Assembly: GCA_900754955.1 (NCBI GenBank)
Contig: CAAEEV010000093.1
Coordinates: 1 to 30,952 of the forward strand
Reading direction: 5' to 3'
Source: Eggerthellaceae bacterium
GTDB taxonomy: Bacteria > Actinomycetota > Coriobacteriia > Coriobacteriales > Eggerthellaceae
Length of the DNA stretch: 30,952 nucleotides
Part shown: positions 842 to 18,255 of the stretch, piece after piece
How the letters are laid out: every line of letters begins with the position of its first letter
Numbering within the stretch: position 1 is the first letter of the stretch
Position numbers and translations under genes: made by a program
Notes under the pieces: model-generated
What the model saw: the letters and a program-made list of their open reading frames with translations, nothing else
What the model was told of the DNA's origin: nothing
The model's database searches: none

Positions 842-845
842 TTGG

Positions 846-853
846 TATATGAT
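846..853 (+). promoter_or_regulatory. candidate -10 of the iorAB promoter
   Basis: TATATGAT lies about 40 bp before the iorA start, with no convincing -35 because the terminator-like hairpin occupies that position. AT-rich -10 boxes without clear -35 boxes recur in this window, for example at 28879 and 29477. Confidence 0.35.
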
Positions 854-892
854 GCCGACAACAAGACGAAGCGGGGCGAAAGCAGGCAGGCG

Positions 893-2935
893 ATGACGAA
901 AAAACTCCTGATGGGCAACGAGGCGTTCGCGCACGCGGCGCTCGAGGCAGGCGTGCGCGTGGTGGCGGGGTACCCTGGCACGCCGTCATCCGAGCTGATC
1001 GAGACGGTGGCGAAGCTTCATGCGGAAGGGCGCGCGCACGGCGTGCACGTGGAGTGGTCCACCAACGAGAAGGCGGCGCTCGAGCTGTTGGCGGGCGCGT
1101 CATACGCCGGCGCGCGCTGCCTGTTCACGTGCAAGCAGGTGGGCCTCAACGTGGCGAGCGATGCGCTCATGAGCCTCAACTACGTTGGCGTCAAGGGCGG
1201 CCTCGTGCTATTCGTGGCCGACGATCCCGGCCCCATCTCGTCTCAAACCGAGCAGGACACGCGCCGTTTCGGCGACTTCGCAAAGGTGCCCGTGCTCGAC
1301 CCTACCACGCCCGAAGAGGGCTTCGCCATGATGAAGAAGGCGTTCGATCTGTCCGAGCGCTACGGCACGCCGGTCATCGTGCGCCCCACCACGCGCATCT
1401 GCCATGCATCCACGTTCTTCGAGGTCGCCGATGAGACGCAGGCGCGTCCTCTGCCAGAGGAGGGCTTCGTCAAGGATCCGAAGTGGGTGATTTTCCCTCG
1501 CCGTGCTTGGGAGGGCCACGGCGAGATCACCGCACGTCTGAATAAGATGGGCGACGAGTTCTGCGAAGGCGGACTTTCGCAGTTCAATACGGTGGTTGAA
1601 GTTGCGTCCGGCGGATCGTTTGACCAGGCCACCGTCCTTCCGGGGGCGAAGTTCGTCGCGGCGAAGGGCGCGGAGGATTCGCTTGACGACATGCTGGAGC
1701 GGGAAGATCAAAAGCGCTCCAGCGCGGAGGGCGCGGATGCGCCGATCGTGGGCATCGTCGCCGGCGGGGTGTCCGCCGCGTATGTGCGCGAAGCATTGCG
1801 AATGCTCGAGGAGCTGCAGAAGGACGCGGGCTGCGCGCTGCCCGCTTACCGCTTTCTGCAAGTGGGAACGCCCTTCCCGTTCCCTGAGAAGCTGGCGCGC
1901 ATTTTCCTGCGCGGACTGAGAGCGGTTTTGGTGTTGGAAGAGCTGGACAACGTGCTGGAAGATGGGCTCGTCCGCATCGCAGGGCGCGCGCATCTGCGCT
2001 GCAATGTCTTCGGCCGCTCGTCCGGCGCGTTGCGTGACAGGGGGGAGAACACTGTCGACAACATCGTGTCCACCATCGCGAACTTCTTCACTTCCTTCGT
2101 CAGCGCCGATATCGTCCGTCCGCCCATCGAGACGCCCGTGCTCTGCGATATGCCGTTGCCCGCGCGTCCTCCCGTGCTGTGCGCGGGGTGTCCGCATCGC
2201 GGTAGCTTCTACGCGGTGAAGCGCGCGCTCGGCAAGCAAGAGGCTGTGCTCTGCGGCGACATCGGCTGCTACACGCTCGGCAACGCCGCCCCGCTCGACG
2301 CGGTGGACACGTGCCTGTGCATGGGTGCGGGCATCACGATGGCGCAGGGCTTCTCCGTGGTGGAACCGCAGAAGAAGCAGGTGGCGTTCGTGGGTGACTC
2401 GACGTTCTTCGCGAGCGGACTCACGGGCATCGCGAATGCGGTGTACAACGGGCACGACGTCACGGTGTGCGTGCTCGACAACGCCACGACGGCCATGACA
2501 GGCTCGCAGCCGCATCCCGGCACGGGTGTGACGCTCATGGGGCCGCACCGCAAGCCGATCGACATCGAAGGCGTGTTGCGCGCGCTCGGCGTGGAATGCG
2601 TCGTGGAAGCCGATCCGCTCGACCTCGAGGCATCCGTTGCCGCCGCGCGTGAGGCCATCGACTTCGCGGGGCCCTCGGCGCTCATCTTCCGCTCGCCGTG
2701 CGTGCAGCTGATCAAGCCCGCCGCGCCAGTGCGCGTCGATGCGGAGGCATGCACGGGCTGCAAGAAATGCATCACCGAGATCGGCTGCCCCGGCTTGGGT
2801 TTCTCGCCCGACGTGAAGGGGCCGCGCTCGAAGGACCGCGGCCAGGCGTTCGTCGACGCGGGTCAGTGCAACGGCTGCGGGTTGTGTGTCCAGGTGTGTC
2901 CCTTCGGAGCCATCAAGGAGGCCGATCGTGATTAA
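893..2935 (+). CDS. iorA: indolepyruvate ferredoxin oxidoreductase, alpha subunit
   Basis: This is the thiamine-diphosphate and iron-sulfur subunit (680 aa) of the enzyme that decarboxylates arylpyruvates to arylacetyl-CoA while reducing ferredoxin. The start of the protein has the IorA signature MGNEAFAHAALEAG followed by GYPGTPSSE. The TPP-binding half contains GDIGCYTLG and VAFVGDSTFFASG. The C-terminus carries a ferredoxin module with CTGCKKC and CNGCGLCVQVCP, enough for two [4Fe-4S] clusters. I chose ATG 893 because the residues coded from an upstream TTG at 842 are not family-like. The stop overlaps the start of iorB by 8 nt, so the two subunits are translationally coupled. The natural substrate could be indole-, phenyl- or hydroxyphenylpyruvate. 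Confidence 0.95.
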   Translation: MTKKLLMGNEAFAHAALEAGVRVVAGYPGTPSSELIETVAKLHAEGRAHGVHVEWSTNEKAALELLAGASYAGARCLFTCKQVGLNVASDALMSLNYVGVKGGLVLFVADDPGPISSQTEQDTRRFGDFAKVPVLDPTTPEEGFAMMKKAFDLSERYGTPVIVRPTTRICHASTFFEVADETQARPLPEEGFVKDPKWVIFPRRAWEGHGEITARLNKMGDEFCEGGLSQFNTVVEVASGGSFDQATVLPGAKFVAAKGAEDSLDDMLEREDQKRSSAEGADAPIVGIVAGGVSAAYVREALRMLEELQKDAGCALPAYRFLQVGTPFPFPEKLARIFLRGLRAVLVLEELDNVLEDGLVRIAGRAHLRCNVFGRSSGALRDRGENTVDNIVSTIANFFTSFVSADIVRPPIETPVLCDMPLPARPPVLCAGCPHRGSFYAVKRALGKQEAVLCGDIGCYTLGNAAPLDAVDTCLCMGAGITMAQGFSVVEPQKKQVAFVGDSTFFASGLTGIANAVYNGHDVTVCVLDNATTAMTGSQPHPGTGVTLMGPHRKPIDIEGVLRALGVECVVEADPLDLEASVAAAREAIDFAGPSALIFRSPCVQLIKPAAPVRVDAEACTGCKKCITEIGCPGLGFSPDVKGPRSKDRGQAFVDAGQCNGCGLCVQVCPFGAIKEADRD

Positions 2936-3524
2936 CATTCTTCTTGTGGGCGTGGGCGGTCAGGGTACGGTGCTCGCCGCGAAGGTGCTCGCTCAAGCGG
3001 CGCAGAACAAAGGCTGGCAGGTGCGCACGGCCGAGACGATCGGCATGGCGCAGCGCGGCGGCAGTGTGACGTCGCATGTGCGCATGGGCTCGTGCGGCGA
3101 GGCCGTGCATGCGCCGCTCGTCGCTCCGGGCACGGCCGATGTGATCATCGCCTTCGAACCCGGCGAAGCCGCGCGTGCTCTGCCGTATTTGGCGACCGAC
3201 GGCGTCATCGTCACGGCGTCCACGCCCGTTCAGCCGGTGACGGCAGCGCTCTCGGCGCAGGCGTACCGCGCCAGCGAAGTGCTCGAGGCCGTCGAGGCCG
3301 AGCTGCACGATCGTCCGGCGCAGATGCACGTGATCGACGACGCCGCCGTGCTCGCGCGCGTCGGCAACCGCCGCGCGCTCAACACCGTGCTGCTGGCGAG
3401 CACCGTGGCCTGCGGGGCCGTGCCGCTCACGATCGACGAGCTGAAGGACGCTATCGCCGCGTGCGTGAAGCCGCGCTTCGTCGAGATGAACATCGCGGCG
3501 GTGGACGCGGCGCTGCAGGCATAG
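2928..3524 (+). CDS. iorB: indolepyruvate ferredoxin oxidoreductase, beta subunit
   Basis: This 198-aa gamma-domain subunit pairs with IorA. The N-terminus MINILLVGVGGQGTVLAAKV is the typical GxGGQG start of the 2-oxoacid:ferredoxin oxidoreductase gamma domain, and ETIGMAQRGGSV follows. The GTG start at 2928 lies inside the last codons of iorA. With IorA it generates arylacetyl-CoA and reduced ferredoxin in amino acid fermentation. The CoA-ligase-type gene 640 bp downstream could use the arylacetyl-CoA. A GC hairpin at 3539-3557 (CGCGGCG/CGCCGCG) lies just after the stop and may end the transcript. Confidence 0.94.
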   Translation: MINILLVGVGGQGTVLAAKVLAQAAQNKGWQVRTAETIGMAQRGGSVTSHVRMGSCGEAVHAPLVAPGTADVIIAFEPGEAARALPYLATDGVIVTASTPVQPVTAALSAQAYRASEVLEAVEAELHDRPAQMHVIDDAAVLARVGNRRALNTVLLASTVACGAVPLTIDELKDAIAACVKPRFVEMNIAAVDAALQA

Positions 3525-3769: not shown

Positions 3770-3797
3770 TTGCGCGCGTTCCGCAATCTGCTATCAT
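3770..3797 (+). promoter_or_regulatory. candidate promoter of the T-box leader
   Basis: TTGCGC (3770-3775), a 16-bp spacer and TATCAT (3792-3797) place the transcript start near 3804, just before the first stem of the T-box leader. Confidence 0.5.
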
Positions 3798-3810
3798 GCA
3801 ACGCGTAAAC

Positions 3811-4128
3811 CGTTGACGAGGAAGTAACGGTGGAAGCGCACTCGCAGAGAGCCGGGGATGCTGCGATCCCGGCAGAAAGCGGTCCATCAAATGGCCCTCC
3901 GAGGGCTCGGGCGAATCGTCGGGCGCGGTTGCAGCGCATGGCGCGGCAGGCGGCTTCGAGGTAGTAGCACGAGACGGGTGCTCCCGTAACAGAGCGGAAG
4001 CGTGACCAGCTCGAAAGCGTGTGGCTGGCGCGGTTCATGAGAGGGCGCGCAAGCGCCAAGCAGTGGTGGCACCGCAGGAGTTTCGCTCTTGTCCCTGCAG
4101 AGGAATGTAGGAGACAAGGGCGTTTTTT
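3811..4128 (+). promoter_or_regulatory. T-box leader with a Trp (UGG) specifier and terminator
   Basis: The order of T-box landmarks is clear. There is a stem I base GAGG (3818-3821) with the loop-E element AGUA, and the AGAGAG motif (3846-3851) followed by the distal stem CCGGGGAUG/GAUCCCGG. The 3' side of the specifier loop is AAAUGGC, bounded by CCAUC (pairs with GGUGG at 3829-3833) and CCUC (pairs with GAGG). The codon position next to the lower stem is UGG at 3892-3894. The T-box sequence UGGUGGCACCGC is at 4064-4075. A terminator follows: 4084-4094 pairs with 4110-4122 in about 12 pairs with one bulge, then six T at 4123-4128. Uncharged tRNA-Trp should favour the antiterminator. The base 3' of the codon is C rather than the usual purine. 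Confidence 0.88.
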
Positions 4129-4164: not shown

Positions 4165-5406
4165 ATGCAGATGACCGACGACCAGCTCAACCTGATCAAA
4201 GAGCAGTTCCGCACGCTGAAGGACCGCTCGCCCTTCTATGCGAAGAAGTTCGAGGGCATCGACATCACCGACGTTCAATCGCAGGCCGATTTCGAGAAGC
4301 TGCCCTTCTCGGAGAAAGCCGACCTGCGCGCCGTATATCCGCTCGGGCTGCAGGCCGTGCCCGACGAGGAGATCGTGCGCATCCACAGCTCGTCGGGAAC
4401 CACGGGCACGCCGGTGGTGATTCCCTACACGCGCCAGGACGTTGAAGACTGGGCCACCATGTTCGCCCGCTGCTACGAGACGGCGGGCATCACCAACAAG
4501 GACCGCATCCAGATCACGCCGGGCTACGGCCTGTGGACGGCGGGCATCGGCTTCCAGGCGGGTGCCGAGAAGCTCGGTGCGATGGCCATTCCCATGGGGC
4601 CGGGCAACACCGAGAAGCAGCTGCAGATGATGCAGGACCTCAAATCCACCGTGCTCGGCGCCACGAGCTCGTACGCGTTGCTGCTCGCCGAGGAGATCAA
4701 CAGCCGCGGCCTGCGCGACAAGATCTACCTGCGCAAGGGCGTCATCGGCTCCGAGCGCTGGGGCGATAAGATGCGCAAGCGCATCTCGGGCGAGCTGGGC
4801 ATCGAGATCTTCGACATCTACGGCCTCACCGAGGTGTACGGCCCGGGCATCGGCATCTCGTGCACTGAGCATCACGGCATGCACGTGTGGAGCGATTACG
4901 TATACATCGAGATCGTCGATCCCGACACCGGCGAGGTGCTGCCCGACGGCGAGACGGGCGAGCTCGTGCTCACCACGTTGCGCAAGCAGGGCGCGCCGCT
5001 CATTCGCTACCGCACGCACGACCTCACGCGCATCATTCCCGGCACCTGTGCCTGCGCGTACGGGGATACGCATCCGCGTATCGACATCCTCGTGGGCCGA
5101 ACCGACGACATGTTCAAGGTGAAGGGCTGCAACATGTTCCCCGCTCAGGTGGAGGACGTCATCGCCATCACTGACGGCGCCAGCTCCGAATACCAGGTGA
5201 TGATCGAGAACATCTCGGGTCGCGACGTGCTCACCGTGCTGTTCGAGACGCCGCTTGAAGGCGAGGAGAAGAAACGCTGCGAGGAAGAGCTCGCCGGCAT
5301 CTTCAAGGCCAAGATCGGCTGCACCCCCGATGCGGTGGGCGTGCCCATGGGCGAGCTGCCGCGCAGCGAGAAGAAGACGAAGCGCATCTTCGACAGCCGC
5401 TACTAA
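4165..5406 (+). CDS. paaK: phenylacetate-CoA ligase family protein (arylacetate-CoA ligase)
   Basis: This is a 413-aa ANL-superfamily adenylate-forming enzyme. The P-loop is SSSGTTGTP (about 74-82); later motifs are YGLTEVYGPG, RYRTHD and GRTDDMFKVKG, and the C-terminal KKTKR carries the presumed catalytic lysine. Length is near the usual ~430 aa of PaaK. ATG 4165 follows AAAGGAGAGG at 4149-4158. Family chemistry is arylacetate + CoA + ATP to arylacetyl-CoA + AMP + PPi. Beside iorAB in a fermenting anaerobe it may instead run toward arylacetate and ATP. The leader upstream is a T-box reading UGG, so the likely ligand is a Trp derivative such as indoleacetate. Both the direction and the substrate are inference. 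Confidence 0.9.
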   Translation: MQMTDDQLNLIKEQFRTLKDRSPFYAKKFEGIDITDVQSQADFEKLPFSEKADLRAVYPLGLQAVPDEEIVRIHSSSGTTGTPVVIPYTRQDVEDWATMFARCYETAGITNKDRIQITPGYGLWTAGIGFQAGAEKLGAMAIPMGPGNTEKQLQMMQDLKSTVLGATSSYALLLAEEINSRGLRDKIYLRKGVIGSERWGDKMRKRISGELGIEIFDIYGLTEVYGPGIGISCTEHHGMHVWSDYVYIEIVDPDTGEVLPDGETGELVLTTLRKQGAPLIRYRTHDLTRIIPGTCACAYGDTHPRIDILVGRTDDMFKVKGCNMFPAQVEDVIAITDGASSEYQVMIENISGRDVLTVLFETPLEGEEKKRCEEELAGIFKAKIGCTPDAVGVPMGELPRSEKKTKRIFDSRY

Positions 5407-5540: not shown

Positions 5541-5837
5541 ATGGAGAGCGTCATCGTCAACGCACGTGTTTCCCGCGCCAAGAAAGAAGCGGGCGCAGGC
5601 ATTCTCGCTTCACTCGGATCGACTACGACGGAGCTGATCAACGGTGCCTACGATTACCTTATCGAGCACCGCTCCCTGCCGGGTGCGTCGGCGGAGTCTG
5701 CCCCTTCGAGGGAGGCTTTCACCCGGTTTGTGTCGTGCAGCACGCTTGAAGTGGATTGGGACGATCGGGCGGCGTCGGGTGATTACCGCTCTCTCGTTCG
5801 CGAAGGAAAGCGGGCTGACTATGAATCTCTTGCTTGA
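5541..5837 (+). CDS. RelB/DinJ-type antitoxin
   Basis: This 98-aa protein begins with a ribbon-helix-helix-like segment (ESVIVNARVSRAKKEAG, then ILASLGSTTTELINGAYDYL) typical of RelB/DinJ antitoxins. An acidic, flexible C-terminus that would wrap the toxin follows. It has a strong RBS (AGGAGG at about 5530). Its stop overlaps the toxin start by 17 nt, a common toxin-antitoxin arrangement. It would neutralise the PIN ribonuclease downstream and probably represses its own promoter. RelB-like antitoxins more often pair with RelE folds; pairing with PIN is less common but known. Confidence 0.78.
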   Translation: MESVIVNARVSRAKKEAGAGILASLGSTTTELINGAYDYLIEHRSLPGASAESAPSREAFTRFVSCSTLEVDWDDRAASGDYRSLVREGKRADYESLA

Positions 5838-6279
5838 TACCAACGTTCTCATCGACTACCTGGGTCGCAAGGCGCCGTTCTTCGACGCTGCGCAGCGCAT
5901 CGTGGCGGCGGGTTTCTTCGGCGATGTTCGGTTGTGGACGTCGGTCTCCTCGCTCAAAGACGCGCTCTATGTGCTTGACCATTATCTGGATTCGGCGTGC
6001 GTCCAGAGGGCGATCGTCAGCGCGTGCGAAGTCATTGTGCCCGTTGATCTGTCGGGTGAGGAGGCTCTTCGGGCGGCAAAGCTGGGGTGGCGCGACTACG
6101 AGGATTGCCTGATCGCTCTAGCTGCCGAGAAGGTGCATGCCGACTATGTGATCACGCGCGACGCGAAGGGCTTCTCGCGGTCTTCGGTTCCTCCGATTTC
6201 CCCTGCCGCATGGCTTGAGGAAATGGAGCGCGAACACGGCCTTGCTTACGGGGTGGTGAACCTGAGCGAAATTACTTAA
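5821..6279 (+). CDS. PIN-domain toxin (VapC-like ribonuclease)
   Basis: This 152-aa protein has the PIN fold pattern: LLLDTNVLIDYL at the N-terminus (Asp6, Asp11), the central WRDYEDCLIALAA (Asp95) and DYVITRDAKGF (Asp114). These supply the acidic Mg-binding set of VapC-type RNases. Family members cleave RNA, often tRNA or mRNA; the target here cannot be told. Start ATG 5821 lies inside the antitoxin gene. The TAA stop is the first triplet of the long palindrome at 6277-6350, so the gene and the palindrome abut exactly. Confidence 0.85.
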   Translation: MNLLLDTNVLIDYLGRKAPFFDAAQRIVAAGFFGDVRLWTSVSSLKDALYVLDHYLDSACVQRAIVSACEVIVPVDLSGEEALRAAKLGWRDYEDCLIALAAEKVHADYVITRDAKGFSRSSVPPISPAAWLEEMEREHGLAYGVVNLSEIT

Positions 6280-10484: not shown

Positions 10485-12743
10485 CTACTCCTCGATCTTG
10501 CTAATGGCGCAGAGCTGCGACTTGTACGAAGCTCCGAGACCAGATTTACCAGGGCGCATGGGAATGAGCTTGTTGATGTTGCACTCCATGACGCCGAACA
10601 GCGTGCCGTCGTCTGGATCGCGCTCGGGGAACCACCAGGCGTGGTCGGCCGATACGGTGTCCTTGCGGATGCGAACCGACAGCTCGGCCTTCTGCTTGCA
10701 CGAGCCGAACTGGTTTTCGATCTTCACCCAGTCGCCGTCCTTAATGCCGTACTGCGCTGCGGTCTCGGGATGGATGAGCACGGTGGGCTCGGGGTGGAGA
10801 CGTCTCATCGAGGGGCTCTGGCGATGCTCCGAGTGGAAGAATCCCCAGTGACGCGCGCCCGTGGTGAGAACGAGCGGGTACTTCTGGGCGAGCTCAGGCG
10901 TCGAGATGGGGCTCTCGGGTGGCTCTTCGTACGTCGGGAAGGGCGGGAATCCGAAGTGGACCATCTCGATGGAGTAGAAGTTGTAGCGGCCCGTCGGCGT
11001 ATTGAAGCCAGGCTGTCCGTCGGGGCGCAGGAGGCCCTTCTTGTGCTTGTCGTACTCAAACTCGGGGAACGCCCAGCAGCGCTCCTGCAGGGTTTCGTAC
11101 GTGAAGCCCGACTTCCGCAGGCAGAAATCGTAGAACTCCTCTTCGGTTTGCCACTGGTCCATGCCCTCGCCGCGACCGAACTTCTTGCCGATCTCGTACA
11201 TGATGACCTGGTCGGGCTTCGCCTCGCCCTGCGGCTCGATGGCCTGGTTGATGGTGCCGATGAGGTAGGGCTGATGGCCGTAGATGCCGATGCGCTCGGG
11301 GAAGCAAGCGGCGGGCAGCAGCACGTCGGCGCATGCCAGGGCCGTTGGCGTGAGGAACAGATCAACTACGACGTTGAAGTCCATGTTCTCCTGCAGCGCT
11401 TTGATGATGCGCTGCGGTGCGGCGCCCATGCAGGCGAGGGCGTTGTTCTGCATCATCCACATGGCCTTGATGGGATAGGGCTCGCCCGTCTCCATCGCGA
11501 CGAGGAGGTCGTCGGGACTGATGGCCTGCATCGCCTTGTTGGCGGGCCAGTTGCCGCAGATCTTCTTGTCCTGGTTGGGCAGATCGCGCGTGCACAGCTC
11601 CCAGTCGTCGCCTGCCGACCAGGGGATGTTGACGCCGAACGCGAAGGGCGCGTTCACCATGGTGCCTGGCTTCTCGAAATTGCCCGTGAGCGCCATGAGG
11701 TCGTAGGCCGCCATGCCCGTTACGAAGCCCTCGGAGGTGTGGTCCATGGCCACGCCCCACTGAAGGCAGCAGCTCTCTGCTTCGCCGATCTTGATGGCGG
11801 CTTCCTTGATGAGATCGACGTCGACGCCGCAGATGGGGGCTGCCCACTCGGGCGTGTAGGGCTTGAGGTGCTCAGCGAATTCGTTGTAGCCGTAGCACCA
11901 GCAGTCGCAGAATTCCTGATCCTGCAGGTTGTTCGCAACGATGTGATTGCAGATCGCCAGGGCGATGGCAGTGTCGGTGCCGGGGCGCAGCTGCAGGAAC
12001 ACGTCGGACTTGCCTGCAAGCCACGTGAGCTTCGGGTCGATGGTGATGAGCTTGGAGCCGCGCTTCATGCACTCGACGACCCAGTGGCCGAGCGTGCCGT
12101 CGGAATTGGCGACGACGGGGTTGTTGCCCCAGATGAGGATGTAGTCAGGACGACGCCAGCGCGGGTCGTCATAGCGGTCGGGCATGTACTGCGAGTAGTC
12201 GGCGATGAACAGCCCGCCCGACTTCAGCGAGGTGCTGAAACGACGCGGTGCGTAACAGGCGATGCCGGAGAGGAAGCCTGTGCCGTAGTTGGGGGTTCCC
12301 AGATAGCGCGCCATGAGCGGACCGTAGCCGTTAATGTCGCGGCCCGTTCCCTGCGTGACCCAGATGGACTCCGCGCCGTACGTGTCGATGACCTTGCCCA
12401 TCTCGCGCAAAATGACGTCGGCCGCTTCCTCCCAGCTCACGCGCTTGAAGGTGTTTTTGCCGCGGTCCTTGCGATCGCGCACCATGGGGTACACGACGCG
12501 ATCGGGGTTGTAGACCATCTCCTTGAGCGCCAGGCATCTCGGGCACAGGCGGCCCTGATTGTACGGATTTTCGGGATCGCCCTCGATTTTTTCGAGCTTG
12601 CCGTCTTTGACGTACAGCAGAACGCCGCAATTGTCATGGCAGCCTGGGCCCGAGCGGGCGGCGCTGCGAATGACTTCGTATTCGCCCTCCTGCCATCTCC
12701 ACGGACGCTTCACGTCGCCGTCTGCCGTTTTCGGTGTAGACAT
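10485..12743 (-). CDS. molybdopterin oxidoreductase, catalytic subunit
   Basis: This is a 752-aa member of the DMSO reductase family (bis-MGD cofactor). It has no Tat signal, so it is cytoplasmic. The N-terminal cluster motif is C-x3-C-x27-C (Cys35, 39, 67) followed by Cys70. The usual first cysteine is replaced by Gly32, so the cluster is incomplete or uses Cys70. The candidate Mo ligand is Cys163 in GIACYAPRR. The C-terminal domain has the dinucleotide-binding pattern (LVLTTGARHW, then HPETAAQYGIKDGDWV). The family includes acetylene hydratase and catechol dehydroxylases; the substrate here is unknown. ATG 12743 follows AGGAGGAGG. The LuxR gene lies upstream in the same orientation. Confidence 0.9.
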   Translation of the reverse strand: MSTPKTADGDVKRPWRWQEGEYEVIRSAARSGPGCHDNCGVLLYVKDGKLEKIEGDPENPYNQGRLCPRCLALKEMVYNPDRVVYPMVRDRKDRGKNTFKRVSWEEAADVILREMGKVIDTYGAESIWVTQGTGRDINGYGPLMARYLGTPNYGTGFLSGIACYAPRRFSTSLKSGGLFIADYSQYMPDRYDDPRWRRPDYILIWGNNPVVANSDGTLGHWVVECMKRGSKLITIDPKLTWLAGKSDVFLQLRPGTDTAIALAICNHIVANNLQDQEFCDCWCYGYNEFAEHLKPYTPEWAAPICGVDVDLIKEAAIKIGEAESCCLQWGVAMDHTSEGFVTGMAAYDLMALTGNFEKPGTMVNAPFAFGVNIPWSAGDDWELCTRDLPNQDKKICGNWPANKAMQAISPDDLLVAMETGEPYPIKAMWMMQNNALACMGAAPQRIIKALQENMDFNVVVDLFLTPTALACADVLLPAACFPERIGIYGHQPYLIGTINQAIEPQGEAKPDQVIMYEIGKKFGRGEGMDQWQTEEEFYDFCLRKSGFTYETLQERCWAFPEFEYDKHKKGLLRPDGQPGFNTPTGRYNFYSIEMVHFGFPPFPTYEEPPESPISTPELAQKYPLVLTTGARHWGFFHSEHRQSPSMRRLHPEPTVLIHPETAAQYGIKDGDWVKIENQFGSCKQKAELSVRIRKDTVSADHAWWFPERDPDDGTLFGVMECNINKLIPMRPGKSGLGASYKSQLCAISKIEE

Positions 12744-14786: not shown

Positions 14787-14812
14787 CGGAAAGCTACGTG
14801 AGAGGAGAGAGG

Positions 14813-17428
14813 ATGGGGAATAACGTAAAGGGCACGCCGATCGTAAAGGGCCTTGGCTTCGACAGCTTCGGCCTCGGCAGCAACGCCTGCACGGTCGACG
14901 TTGACCGGGAGCAGGACAAGATCATCCGAATCAGACCGCTCCACTTCGACGAGCATCAGACGCCCGAGGAGCTCAACGCCTGGAAGATCGAGGCGCGCGG
15001 CAAGACCTTCGAGCCGGGATTCAAGACGCTGATCTCGCCGCTTTCGCTGTGCTACAAGAAGCGCGTCTACTCGAAGAACCGCATTCCGTACCCCATGAAG
15101 CGCGTCGACTGGGATCCTCAAGGAGAGCGCAACCCCCAGAATCGCGGCACAAGCGGATACGTGCGCATCAGCTGGGACGAGGCGACCGACCTCATCGCCG
15201 CGGAGATCAAGCGCGTTCAGGAGACTTACGGTCCCGCTTCCGTGTTGCTCGAACTTGACGGCCACGGCGAGACGAAGTGCGTGCACGCGTCTCACGGATG
15301 CCAGAGCCGCATGTTCGACCTCATCGGACGCTACACGCTGCAGATGCGCCAGCCCGACAGCTGGGAAGGTTGGTATTGGGGCGCCAAGCACATCTGGGGC
15401 ATGGATCCCCTCGGCCAGAACTCCCTGCAGAACAACGTCATTAAGGACATCTCGGAAAACGGCGACGCCGTGCTGTTCTGGGGTTGCGATCCCGAGACCA
15501 CGCCGCTCGGCTGGGGCGGCATGATGGCGAGCCGCATTTGCTACTGGTTCACCGAGATCGGCGTGAAGCAGATTCACATCGCGCCTGACGTGAATTACGC
15601 CAATGCGGTTCATGCGGACAAGTGGGTGCCCGTGCTGCCTAACACCGACGCGGCGCTGCAGCTTGCCATCGCCTACACGTGGATCGTCGAGGACTCCTAT
15701 GACAAGGAGTACCTCGAAACGCATGCGGTGGGCTTCGAGAACTTCAAGTACTACGTGCTCGGCGGCGAGGACGGTGTGCCGAAGACGCCGAAGTGGGCCG
15801 AGAAGATCTGCGGCGTGCCGAGCTACACCATCAAGGCGCTTGCTCGCTACTGGGCCAAGCATGCGGTGTCGATTGCGCACTGCAACGGCGGCTCCTACAT
15901 CCGCTCCTGCTTCGCACACGAGCCTGCACGCCTCGAAGTGGCGTTGCTCGGCATGCAGGGTCTCGGCAAGCCCGGCGCCAATCAGTTCAAGTTCATGGAG
16001 TGGACGCTGTACGGCATCCCCACGGTGACGCCGCTGCCGCCCTCGGTTGAGATTCCCGATCCGAGCCCCGCATACCGCGGATGGTACCGCTCATTCCCCG
16101 ACAGCTTCATCCCGAAGACGCTCATTCCCGAAGCCATCATGAATCCACCGGTGAGCTGGTACGGGCATCCGTCGGCCGGCATGCCGCGTGAGGATCAGTT
16201 CAACGGACCGTTCACCTTCCCGCTGGAGGGCAACGAGCGCATCCACATGATCTGGTCTGATACGCCCTGCTGGGAGACGTGCTGGAACGGCGGCGCCTCC
16301 ATGCAGGACGCGCTGCGCCACGAGTCGATCGAGTTTGTGATCGTGCAGCATCCCTGGCTTGAGAACGACTGCTACTTCGCCGACATCATCCTGCCGACCA
16401 ACACCAAGTTCGAAACCGAAGACATCGGCACCGACGCCGACAACGGCCAGTGGACTCTCGTGTTCTACGAGCAGCAGGCCATCCAGCCCCTGCTCGACTC
16501 CAAGTCGGACATGGAGGCCGTGGGCGAGGTTGCCAAGAAGCTCGAGAAGTACGGCGGGATCTACGAGAACCTCTACGAGCGCTACATGGAGGGCAAGACC
16601 TGCGACGACTTCATCCGAGCTGGCTTCGACAACACGGGCGCAGCGGAGAAGATGACGTTCGAGGAGTTCAAGGAGCGTCAGTACTATGCGTTCCCCACGC
16701 GCGAGGACTGGAAGGAGCTTCCCGCAGGGTTGATTGGGTTCCATGACGATCCCGTGAAGAACCCGCTGTCCACGCCGTCGGGCAAGCTCGAGTACTACTC
16801 GACTTCGCTCGCGCAGCACTTCCCCGATGACAAGGAGCGCGGCCCCATTCCCCATTGGGTCGATGAGGGCGCAGGGCATCAGGAGCGCCAGTACCTCGAG
16901 CGTGGCCGCAAGTACCCGTTCCTGCTCGTATCGAACCATCCGCGTTGGCGCGTGCACGCCAACCATGACGACGTCACCTGGTTCCGCGAGATGGAAGAGT
17001 ACGTGAAGGTGACGGGTCCCGACGGCTACAAGTACGAACCCGTGTGGGTGAATCCGATCGACGCCGGCAAGCTCGGACTTGAGACGGGCGACATCGTGAA
17101 GATCTACAACGAGCGCGGCGCGGTGCTCGGCGGCGTTCGCGTAACCGAGCGCATCATGCCCGGTGCGATCTCGCAGGATCACGGTGCGCGTGTCGATGGC
17201 ATCGTTTTGGGACGCGGCGGTCTGGACCGCGGCGGCGCCAACAACCTGATTGCGCCGACGGCGACCACGTCGAGTCATGCTGCCGGCGAGGTGACGGGCG
17301 GCTTCCTCGTGAACATCGAGAAGGTTGACGTGTTCAAGCTGGCGGAAGAGTACCCCGAGGCGTTTGCGCGCGACTACGACCCCGACTGCGGTCTGATCGC
17401 ATCGTCCCGTCTTGCGGAGGAGGAGTAG
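14813..17428 (+). CDS. athL: pyrogallol-phloroglucinol transhydroxylase-type molybdoenzyme, large subunit
   Basis: This 871-aa cytoplasmic molybdopterin protein of the DMSO reductase family lacks the N-terminal [4Fe-4S] motif, as the Pelobacter acidigallici transhydroxylase large subunit (875 aa, as I recall) does. His151, in DGHGETK, and Asp182-Ser183, in RQPDSWEG, align by spacing with that enzyme's catalytic His144 and Asp174 and its neighbouring Ser175. Ser would be the Mo ligand. The C-terminal MGD-binding domain has the typical HPRWRVHANHDD and GDIVKIYNERG. ATG 14813 follows GAGGAGAGAGG. athS starts 2 nt after the stop. The family reaction moves a hydroxyl between trihydroxybenzenes without net redox change. 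The real substrate may be another polyphenol or a dehydroxylation substrate. Confidence 0.88.
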   Translation: MGNNVKGTPIVKGLGFDSFGLGSNACTVDVDREQDKIIRIRPLHFDEHQTPEELNAWKIEARGKTFEPGFKTLISPLSLCYKKRVYSKNRIPYPMKRVDWDPQGERNPQNRGTSGYVRISWDEATDLIAAEIKRVQETYGPASVLLELDGHGETKCVHASHGCQSRMFDLIGRYTLQMRQPDSWEGWYWGAKHIWGMDPLGQNSLQNNVIKDISENGDAVLFWGCDPETTPLGWGGMMASRICYWFTEIGVKQIHIAPDVNYANAVHADKWVPVLPNTDAALQLAIAYTWIVEDSYDKEYLETHAVGFENFKYYVLGGEDGVPKTPKWAEKICGVPSYTIKALARYWAKHAVSIAHCNGGSYIRSCFAHEPARLEVALLGMQGLGKPGANQFKFMEWTLYGIPTVTPLPPSVEIPDPSPAYRGWYRSFPDSFIPKTLIPEAIMNPPVSWYGHPSAGMPREDQFNGPFTFPLEGNERIHMIWSDTPCWETCWNGGASMQDALRHESIEFVIVQHPWLENDCYFADIILPTNTKFETEDIGTDADNGQWTLVFYEQQAIQPLLDSKSDMEAVGEVAKKLEKYGGIYENLYERYMEGKTCDDFIRAGFDNTGAAEKMTFEEFKERQYYAFPTREDWKELPAGLIGFHDDPVKNPLSTPSGKLEYYSTSLAQHFPDDKERGPIPHWVDEGAGHQERQYLERGRKYPFLLVSNHPRWRVHANHDDVTWFREMEEYVKVTGPDGYKYEPVWVNPIDAGKLGLETGDIVKIYNERGAVLGGVRVTERIMPGAISQDHGARVDGIVLGRGGLDRGGANNLIAPTATTSSHAAGEVTGGFLVNIEKVDVFKLAEEYPEAFARDYDPDCGLIASSRLAEEE

Positions 17429-17430
17429 AC

Positions 17431-18255
17431 ATGGGCAAGGTGTTTGTTTTCGACGTCCTGAAATGCAGCGGTTGCCGCAACTGCCAGATCGCCTGCAAGG
17501 ACGAGCATGTCGACAATGACTGGTCTCCGTACGCGAAGCCGCAGCCCGATACGGGTCAGTTCTGGACGCGCATCGAGGAGCGCGTGCGGGGACAGGTGCC
17601 GAAGGTGAAGGTCTCCTACGTACTGCACATGTGCCAGCACTGCGATGACGCGCCGTGCATGAAGGCGGCTCCCGGGGCGGTCTACAAGCGCGATGACGGT
17701 CTGGTGATCATCGATCCCGAGAAGGCGCAGGGACGCGAGGAGCTTGTCAAAGCGTGCCCGTATGGCGCGATCTGGTGGAACGAGGAGCTCGCCATTCCCC
17801 AGAAGTGCACGGGATGCGCGCATCTGGTTGATGCGGGCGAGATTCCCCACTGCGTGGACGTGTGCTCGCATGACGCGATCCGCTTCGGCGACGAGAGGGA
17901 GTTCGCTGACGAGCTGGCTGCCGCAGGCTATCTCAAGCCCGAGCGGGGCGATCAGGACCGACCGCGCGTCTACTACCTCAATCTTCCCAAGCGTTTTCTT
18001 GCGGGCATCGTGATCGACCCCGAGGAAGACGAGGTGATCATCGGCGCGAAGGTGACGGCTCAGAACGATTCGACCGGTGAGGTGCTTGTCACCGAGACCG
18101 ACGAGTTCGGCGACTTCTGGTTCAACCAGGTCGACGCCAGCGATTGGCACGTGTACGTCGAGGCCGACGGGTTCATGACGCGCGTATTCGAGTCGAGTAC
18201 GAAGGAAGAGGATCGGAACATGGGTCCTTTGGAGATGTATCGGAGTCGCTTGTGA
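17431..18255 (+). CDS. athS: transhydroxylase-type iron-sulfur subunit with Ig/transthyretin-like C-terminus
   Basis: This 274-aa protein has the same length, as I recall, as the P. acidigallici beta subunit. Twelve cysteines (12, 15, 18, 22; 68, 71, 76, 109; 126, 129, 141, 145) give three [4Fe-4S] clusters in a DmsB-like ferredoxin fold. From about residue 190 a beta-rich domain begins (LAGIVIDPEEDEVIIGAKV, then TGEVLVTETDEFGDFWF). It resembles the carboxypeptidase-regulatory/transthyretin-like barrel that is a hallmark of the transhydroxylase small subunit. It follows athL by 2 nt and surely forms the heterodimer with it in the cytoplasm. Confidence 0.9.
   Translation: MGKVFVFDVLKCSGCRNCQIACKDEHVDNDWSPYAKPQPDTGQFWTRIEERVRGQVPKVKVSYVLHMCQHCDDAPCMKAAPGAVYKRDDGLVIIDPEKAQGREELVKACPYGAIWWNEELAIPQKCTGCAHLVDAGEIPHCVDVCSHDAIRFGDEREFADELAAAGYLKPERGDQDRPRVYYLNLPKRFLAGIVIDPEEDEVIIGAKVTAQNDSTGEVLVTETDEFGDFWFNQVDASDWHVYVEADGFMTRVFESSTKEEDRNMGPLEMYRSRL

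Follow-up and report, generated by a model that had tools for sequence, protein, structure and literature searches.

The window analysed here is a stretch of 30,952 nucleotides from an Eggerthellaceae bacterium (contig CAAEEV010000093.1). Near its start, iorA and iorB, which probably encode an indolepyruvate oxidoreductase (IOR), are followed on the same strand by a T-box leader and a gene for an arylacetate-CoA ligase. An earlier reading of this DNA, the original prediction, proposed that a tryptophan-specific T-box controls the ligase, and that the gene serves the salvage of indoleacetate. The features are as follows, in window coordinates.

842-2935, plus strand: iorA, indolepyruvate ferredoxin oxidoreductase alpha subunit (TIGR03336; Pfam TPP, POR_N, Fer4)
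2886-3524, plus strand: iorB, indolepyruvate oxidoreductase beta subunit (PF01558)
3770-3797, plus strand: candidate promoter TTGCGC-N16-TATCAT, just 5' of the leader, found by eye
3804-4099, plus strand: T-box leader (RF00230 match, 59.4 bits)
3810-3904, plus strand: Stem I with specifier loop, AGAGA element and distal loop (model alignment, covariation)
3892-3894, plus strand: specifier codon UGG (Trp) (model alignment, register calibrated against pheS leaders)
4060-4098, plus strand: antiterminator with the 7-nt T-box bulge UGGCACC (fold alone, covariation)
4067-4070, plus strand: UGGC, complementary to the tRNA-Trp acceptor end GCCA (tRNA-Trp(CCA) genes of relatives)
4084-4128, plus strand: intrinsic terminator, a 16-bp stem with one bulged A, then T6 (fold, covariation)
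4165-5406, plus strand: PaaK-like AMP-forming arylacetate-CoA ligase, 413 aa, the regulated gene (PF14535, PF00501)

The ligase carries an AMP-binding (PF00501) and an AMP-binding_C_2 (PF14535) domain. It scores 387.7 bits on TIGR02155 (PaaK), below the equivalog cut-off of 646.3, and is therefore filed here only as PaaK-like and AMP-forming. Its best solved relatives are 4r1l, 2y27 and 2y4o; 4r1l, which presumably comes from Bacteroides, aligns over ligase residues 7-412, a full-length match to a solved PaaK. IorA reaches 649.4 bits on TIGR03336, just below the cut-off of 650.9, and the best IOR beta model gives IorB 155.9 against a cut-off of 230, all the models shown being below cut-off. 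Elsewhere in the window, a small gene and then a PIN-domain gene lie 3' of the ligase (5541-6279), possibly a toxin-antitoxin pair, and there are genes for two molybdopterin oxidoreductases and a 4Fe-4S subunit (10485-12743 on the minus strand, 14798-17428 and 17431-18255 on the plus strand).

The leader RNA and its specifier codon

The Rfam T-box model RF00230 matches the leader over its full length (model positions 1-219), with an E-value of 1.5e-12 when 450 bases are searched and of 1e-10 for the whole window on both strands. The predicted span of 3811-4128 is essentially right. No second T-box was found in the whole window, on both strands, with RF00230 at E-values up to 1. The 59.4 bits fall short of the Rfam gathering score of 93, which is a curation threshold and not a biological feature; the leader is absent from a default Rfam scan at that score, and an E-value search is needed. 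In 23 related genomes there are 57 T-box matches, spread over 21 of the genomes and including pheS leaders, and all 57 also lie below 93 bits. We therefore take the low score as a mark of lineage divergence. A clostridial leader (L203, see below) scores 122.2 bits, above the gathering score.

The landmarks expected of a T-box are in place, among them Stem I, the UGGC at 4067-4070 and the terminator with its T6. Judged by its sequence, the leader RNA is an ordinary T-box, and it has Stem I, specifier loop, T-box bulge, antiterminator/terminator switch and UGG in common with other Trp-specific RF00230 T-boxes. Hexamers similar to those of the candidate promoter precede the leaders of L002, L003 and L004, again by eye. 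A consensus scan for promoters and terminators reported neither this promoter, which is therefore only a candidate, nor the terminator, whose stem has a bulge.

In the model alignment GAGG pairs with CCUC below the specifier loop, and the triplet placed at the codon position, as originally predicted, is UGG (3892-3894). TBDB gives priority to a triplet 2-4 nt short of the specifier bulge's end (PMC7778990), and this UGG sits there. We calibrated this register on 59 leaders (the 57 from the 23 genomes, the window and the clostridial leader L055, after removal of four duplicate fetches), reading the triplet 6 nt 5' of the conserved GAG that closes Stem I. The leaders partition into 25 with UGG, 18 with UUC and 16 others. 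Those with UGG precede ECF genes (17), trpB2 (5) or the ligase (3), and TGG is in register in 25 of 25. The 18 pheS leaders show TTC in all 17 that can be anchored, and the remaining one, which has no GAG anchor, also shows TTC. For PheS, IlvD and TrpP, examples of the identities were checked with Pfam.

The calibration has one blemish. Among the 16 leaders before ilvD, 15 are anchored and 12 of these read GCC (Ala), a misfit for the branched-chain pathway. A motif search of the 59 leaders found the ilvD leaders to be without the usual GTGGNACCGC core. They belong to loci L091, L093, L094, L096, L098, L099, L105, L108, L111, L112, L114, L116, L118, L132, L134 and L138, where a branched-chain codon had been expected.

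The T-box bulge agrees with the codon. C occupies its variable position in 24 of the 25 UGG leaders, and T does so in all 18 pheS leaders. When 10 loci of relatives were scanned, the tRNA-Trp(CCA) genes found, eight in number, all ended in GCCA with G73, so the full UGGC-GCCA pairing is available; no tRNA-Trp gene was found in the window itself. Two UGG leaders, L086:1501-1726 and L203:476-703, have U in place of C in the bulge, which would turn their discriminator pairing with G73 into a wobble. The UGG specificity predicted for this T-box is borne out, as far as its letters can tell. Two other triplets, AUG (Met) and GGC (Gly), were considered as specifiers and are ruled out by the calibrated register. 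Furthermore, tRNA-Met has A73 and tRNA-Gly has U73, neither of which fits UGGC.

Folded alone, the terminator reaches -26.0 kcal/mol; the antiterminator, which shows the canonical 7-nt bulge, reaches -13.9 kcal/mol. The two share the strand 4085-4098 and are mutually exclusive. The whole leader folds better than its shuffles (z of -2.4; 1 of 100 shuffles as good). Its minimum-energy fold, however, retains the terminator but lacks the T-box Stem I; that this is not the fold of a T-box counts against the proposed reading.

Covariation was examined in alignments of leaders. In 25 leaders (23 distinct) the antiterminator has 98.9% of its cells paired with 19 two-sided changes, and the terminator 99.0% with 51. 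For Stem I, in 24 leaders, the values are 89.0% and 65, and both helices that flank the specifier loop covary; a 2-bp helix higher in the stem is without support in the same 24, with 45.8% of cells paired. On three measures (percentage of cells paired, number of two-sided cells, covariation score) no shuffle out of 500 equalled the real alignment. Two further measures are unexceptional, namely the number of pairs with a two-sided change (matched by 314, 92 and 12 of 500 shuffles) and the further pair types (matched by 487, 472 and 52). With partners slid along the sequence only 33-65% of cells pair overall, and 33-46% for Stem I, a comparison that favours the structures as drawn, since these were hand-drawn from the window and an ECF leader.

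Genes behind the UGG T-boxes of relatives

Relatives of the ligase, taken as the best 80 of 272 in a scan of genome contigs, formed the basis of the EGGERTHELLACEAE-type regulon survey. The window ligase groups in one clade with L001-L007, with support of 100/99. In L005 and L007, as in the window, a T-box alone stands between iorB and the ligase. L003 and L004 have T-box-trpB2-ligase after iorB, and L002 has T-box-ECF-ligase after iorB, the ECF genes encoding an S-like component, two ATPases and a T component. Pfam gives no match for the S component of L002; it owes its name to its resemblance to other S components, two of which (L055 and L115) were scanned and match TrpP. In L001 the order is trpB2-ligase, and the contig breaks off some 83 nt short of the likely trpB2 start, too early for a T-box to be visible. 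A second contig of the same genome carries iorAB-T-box-trpB2 (L100). By eye, the T-box on that contig (L100:1501-1743, minus strand) is a chimera, with a 5' half like that of L002 and an antiterminator/terminator half like that of the window.

There was no T-box match at the ligase locus of L006, nor, when coordinates were compared, at the ligase locus in any of 16 searched genomes outside the clade. Few of the Eggerthellaceae ligases are thus under T-box control, a point against the proposed reading. When the 80 ligase loci were searched with a strict regular expression for the core motif of T-boxes, it matched L002, L003, L004, L005 and L007 together with L055; its matches in L020, L021, L031 and L045 fall elsewhere and were ignored.

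The tree gives the window L001 as its sister and places L005/L007 as sister to L004, so the direct T-box-ligase arrangement occupies two separate branches, each beside trpB2-ligase relatives. Given this placement it probably arose twice through the loss of trpB2; repeated gains could also account for it. Such losses raise the question of whether the T-box is merely a passenger, left before the ligase by departed trpB2 or ECF genes and devoid of adaptive meaning. The order T-box-trpB2-ligase in L003 and L004, the resemblance of the window's start region to that of trpB2, and the other Eggerthellaceae-type genomes that have the ligase without a T-box would all fit such a relic. Nevertheless, the window, L005 and L007 all have an undamaged specifier, bulge, antiterminator and terminator, the direct arrangement is found on both branches, and clostridial UGG T-boxes stand directly before iorAB-ligase or, in L203, before the ligase. 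We considered a relic very improbable and rejected it.

What tryptophan genes do these organisms have? TrpA (PF00290) and IGPS (PF00218) were each found in none of 23 Eggerthellaceae-type genomes, a set with some incomplete MAGs (e.g. G006, 1.3 Mb) and with complete genomes (those of L016 and L028); 14 of 14 controls gave a match. TrpB2 (TIGR01415) is above cut-off in 10 of the 23 and the other matches have E-values of 2e-6 or worse, so we see no canonical TrpB in this set. G005 and G007, the genomes with the direct T-box-ligase arrangement, have no TrpB-type match at all, and the only other UGG T-box in each precedes a TrpP-type ECF gene (L120 and L115). Prephenate dehydratase (PDT), of the phenylalanine branch, is present in 22 of the 23. 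Experimentally, Eggerthella lenta fails to grow in its defined medium when tryptophan is left out (PMC10234575).

A second group of UGG T-boxes lies in the clostridia. L055, from the Clostridiaceae, has T-box-ECF-iorA-iorB-ligase in one run. Its family comprises 32 genomes, 28 of them with a match, and we took the upstream regions of 17 further ligases with at least 66% identity. A T-box was found at 8 of these 17 loci. It precedes iorAB-ligase with no other recognised gene between them in L194, L202, L204, L205 and L206, precedes ECF-iorAB-ligase in L191 and L192, like L055, and precedes the ligase alone in L203. Six of the 17 (L195 and L197-L201) have no T-box in the upstream region, and the contigs of three (L193, L196 and L207) are too short to judge. 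With L055 included, the specifier is TGG in nine of nine clostridial leaders; in L192 the anchor is AAG instead of GAG and the TGG was read by eye.

Most of the clostridial carriers have TrpA and IGPS (8 and 7, respectively, of the nine genomes with a T-box; 14 and 13 of 18 clostridial genomes), and in this group the switch is therefore not tied to auxotrophy. TrpA is also above cut-off in 16 of the 31 genomes of other loci (L047-L055, L058-L060 and L062-L080). In L194 (G077 C165), trpA and IGPS share the contig with T-box-iorAB-ligase, at a distance of about 9-13 kb. A separate observation concerns L048:5571-5680 and L049:4475-4584, where a TPP riboswitch scoring just below its gathering score lies directly 3' of iorAB-ligase; IOR needs thiamine diphosphate.

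A proposed salvage of indoleacetate under tryptophan starvation

We propose, with considerable confidence, that a tRNA-Trp T-box controls an AMP-forming arylacetate-CoA ligase for the starvation-induced salvage of indoleacetate to tryptophan. With charged tRNA-Trp the terminator at 4084-4128 would form and the ligase would be off. When the tRNA is uncharged, its anticodon CCA would read the UGG in Stem I and its GCCA end would pair with UGGC, stabilising the antiterminator, and the ligase would be made. The enzyme would then activate indole-3-acetate to indoleacetyl-CoA, IorAB would convert this to indolepyruvate by working in the direction of reductive carboxylation, and an aminotransferase would complete tryptophan. 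The organism itself, judging from its relatives, probably has no de novo tryptophan pathway, and tryptophan starvation would induce the salvage. Sequence comparison establishes the T-box with its UGG specificity and switch elements, the family to which the gene belongs and its partners in the regulon; binding of the tRNA, the substrate, the direction of the flux, the aminotransferase step and the auxotrophy of this organism are predictions.

Salvage is strongly favoured over degradation, in keeping with the original prediction. The T-box would open the gene under tryptophan shortage, and its partners import tryptophan or make it from indole. Support comes from the trpB2 and ECF partners in sister lineages, from the clostridial UGG iorAB-ligase operons, and from the lack of TrpA and IGPS in genomes that keep PDT. 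Where iorAB shares the operon, as in the clostridia, both steps from indoleacetate to indolepyruvate would be induced together. The iorAB genes of the window itself are not behind a detectable T-box; none was found in the 841 bases available upstream of iorA, which counts against the salvage reading. A second point against it is that sequence cannot tell indoleacetate from phenylacetate as the substrate of the ligase.

There is an alternative, in which the T-box is real and the ligase serves phenylacetate, 4-hydroxyphenylacetate or all arylacetates, for phenylalanine or tyrosine supply or for detoxification, with tryptophan as a proxy for aromatic starvation. The best solved relatives of the ligase are named phenylacetate-CoA ligases, and IORs are described as acting on phenyl-, hydroxyphenyl- and indolepyruvate (PMC13285125). 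We nonetheless regard this alternative as unlikely. The codon is UGG in 25 of 25 leaders of the class and in the nine clostridial ones (L055 being in both sets), the partners trpB2 and the TrpP-type ECF are related to tryptophan, and the presence of PDT in 22 of 23 genomes would make phenylalanine salvage unneeded. A broad substrate range would in any case be compatible with a role in tryptophan supply.

The ligase and IOR might also run oxidatively and form indoleacetate from tryptophan, with the T-box in some unusual role, e.g. energy or CoA scavenging in starvation. IOR is reversible in principle, which speaks for this idea. Furthermore, E. lenta releases indole-3-acetate, apparently derived from tryptophan (PMC10234575), and the oxidative direction therefore also occurs in the family. 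Against it, a T-box that is on when tryptophan is short would cause tryptophan to be wasted, and AMP-forming ligases typically favour acyl-CoA synthesis (PMC13285125). In addition, the Clostridium difficile operon CD2382-iorAB-butK includes a kinase and is recorded as dependent on SigL (PMC7438776). We considered the oxidative role and rejected it as highly improbable.

The same literature corrects the original prediction on one point. To call the ligase "catabolic or fermentative" is the wrong default for an AMP-forming enzyme, as the catabolic IOR-type operons described in the literature consulted have a kinase in its place (PMC7438776 and PMC13285125). In the C. difficile operon, aminotransferase-iorAB-butK, the iorAB core is shared and a kinase replaces the ligase; we read it as catabolic in design. 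The pair found here, an IOR next to an AMP-forming ligase, is that of Bacteroides, and the PaaK-like 4r1l is the best solved relative of our ligase. One Bacteroides ligase adjoining IOR proved in assays to be an arylacetate-CoA ligase; the authors suggested a biosynthetic role, since AMP-forming ligases favour acyl-CoA synthesis; the term T-box has no occurrence in the main text of that paper (PMC13285125).

Rumen anaerobes make tryptophan from indoleacetate. Reverse IOR, leading from arylacetates to aromatic amino acids, is described in methanogens (PMC13285125). A biosynthetic IOR is common to that route and to ours; the difference is that the ligase here, and the whole operon in clostridia, lies behind a tRNA-Trp T-box. 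A close precedent is iorAB-paaK of Geobacter, an operon that has been assigned to tryptophan biosynthesis and is given there with a conserved 5' sequence (PMC2700814). It has the same gene trio, the same assignment to tryptophan and a conserved leader, and the assignment supports the salvage reading. Its leader (Gmet_P1827 / GSU1739.1) is 91-98 nt long by coordinates and, in the available part of that source, is not called a T-box, a term applied there only to the leader of leuA. It may be another Trp-responsive element.

The known targets of Trp T-boxes include trpP (PMC7438776), trpX (PMC9382623), and trpE with trpB-like genes in Dehalococcoides (PMC2494555). In contrast to the synthetase, classical biosynthesis and transporter genes that T-boxes are known to control, the target here is an arylacetate-CoA ligase, joined in the clostridial relatives by iorAB. 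In the literature searched, which took in few subscription journals, we found neither this ligase nor iorAB described as a T-box target, and no co-occurrence of "T-box" with "indolepyruvate" or "phenylacetate-CoA ligase". The pathway was already known in outline and the link between iorAB-paaK and tryptophan had been proposed for Geobacter; the T-box target itself is unexpected and informative.

Taken more broadly, the data make it reasonably likely that a Trp-tRNA-gated "auxin salvage" regulon exists in anaerobes of two phyla, with the ligase and reverse IOR under UGG T-boxes. Where relatives lack TrpA and IGPS and trpB2 has gone from the operon, it may be the sole remaining route to tryptophan.

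Indoleacetate is usually regarded as an end product of bacterial tryptophan breakdown and as a host signal. A tryptophan-starvation switch on its re-activation would mean that this flow is reversed in some bacteria. The T-box regulon would gain a class of genes, and the direction in which an IOR-ligase pair works becomes testable from its regulation. Finally, the salvage reading predicts cross-feeding of indoleacetate to bacteria that are unable to make tryptophan.
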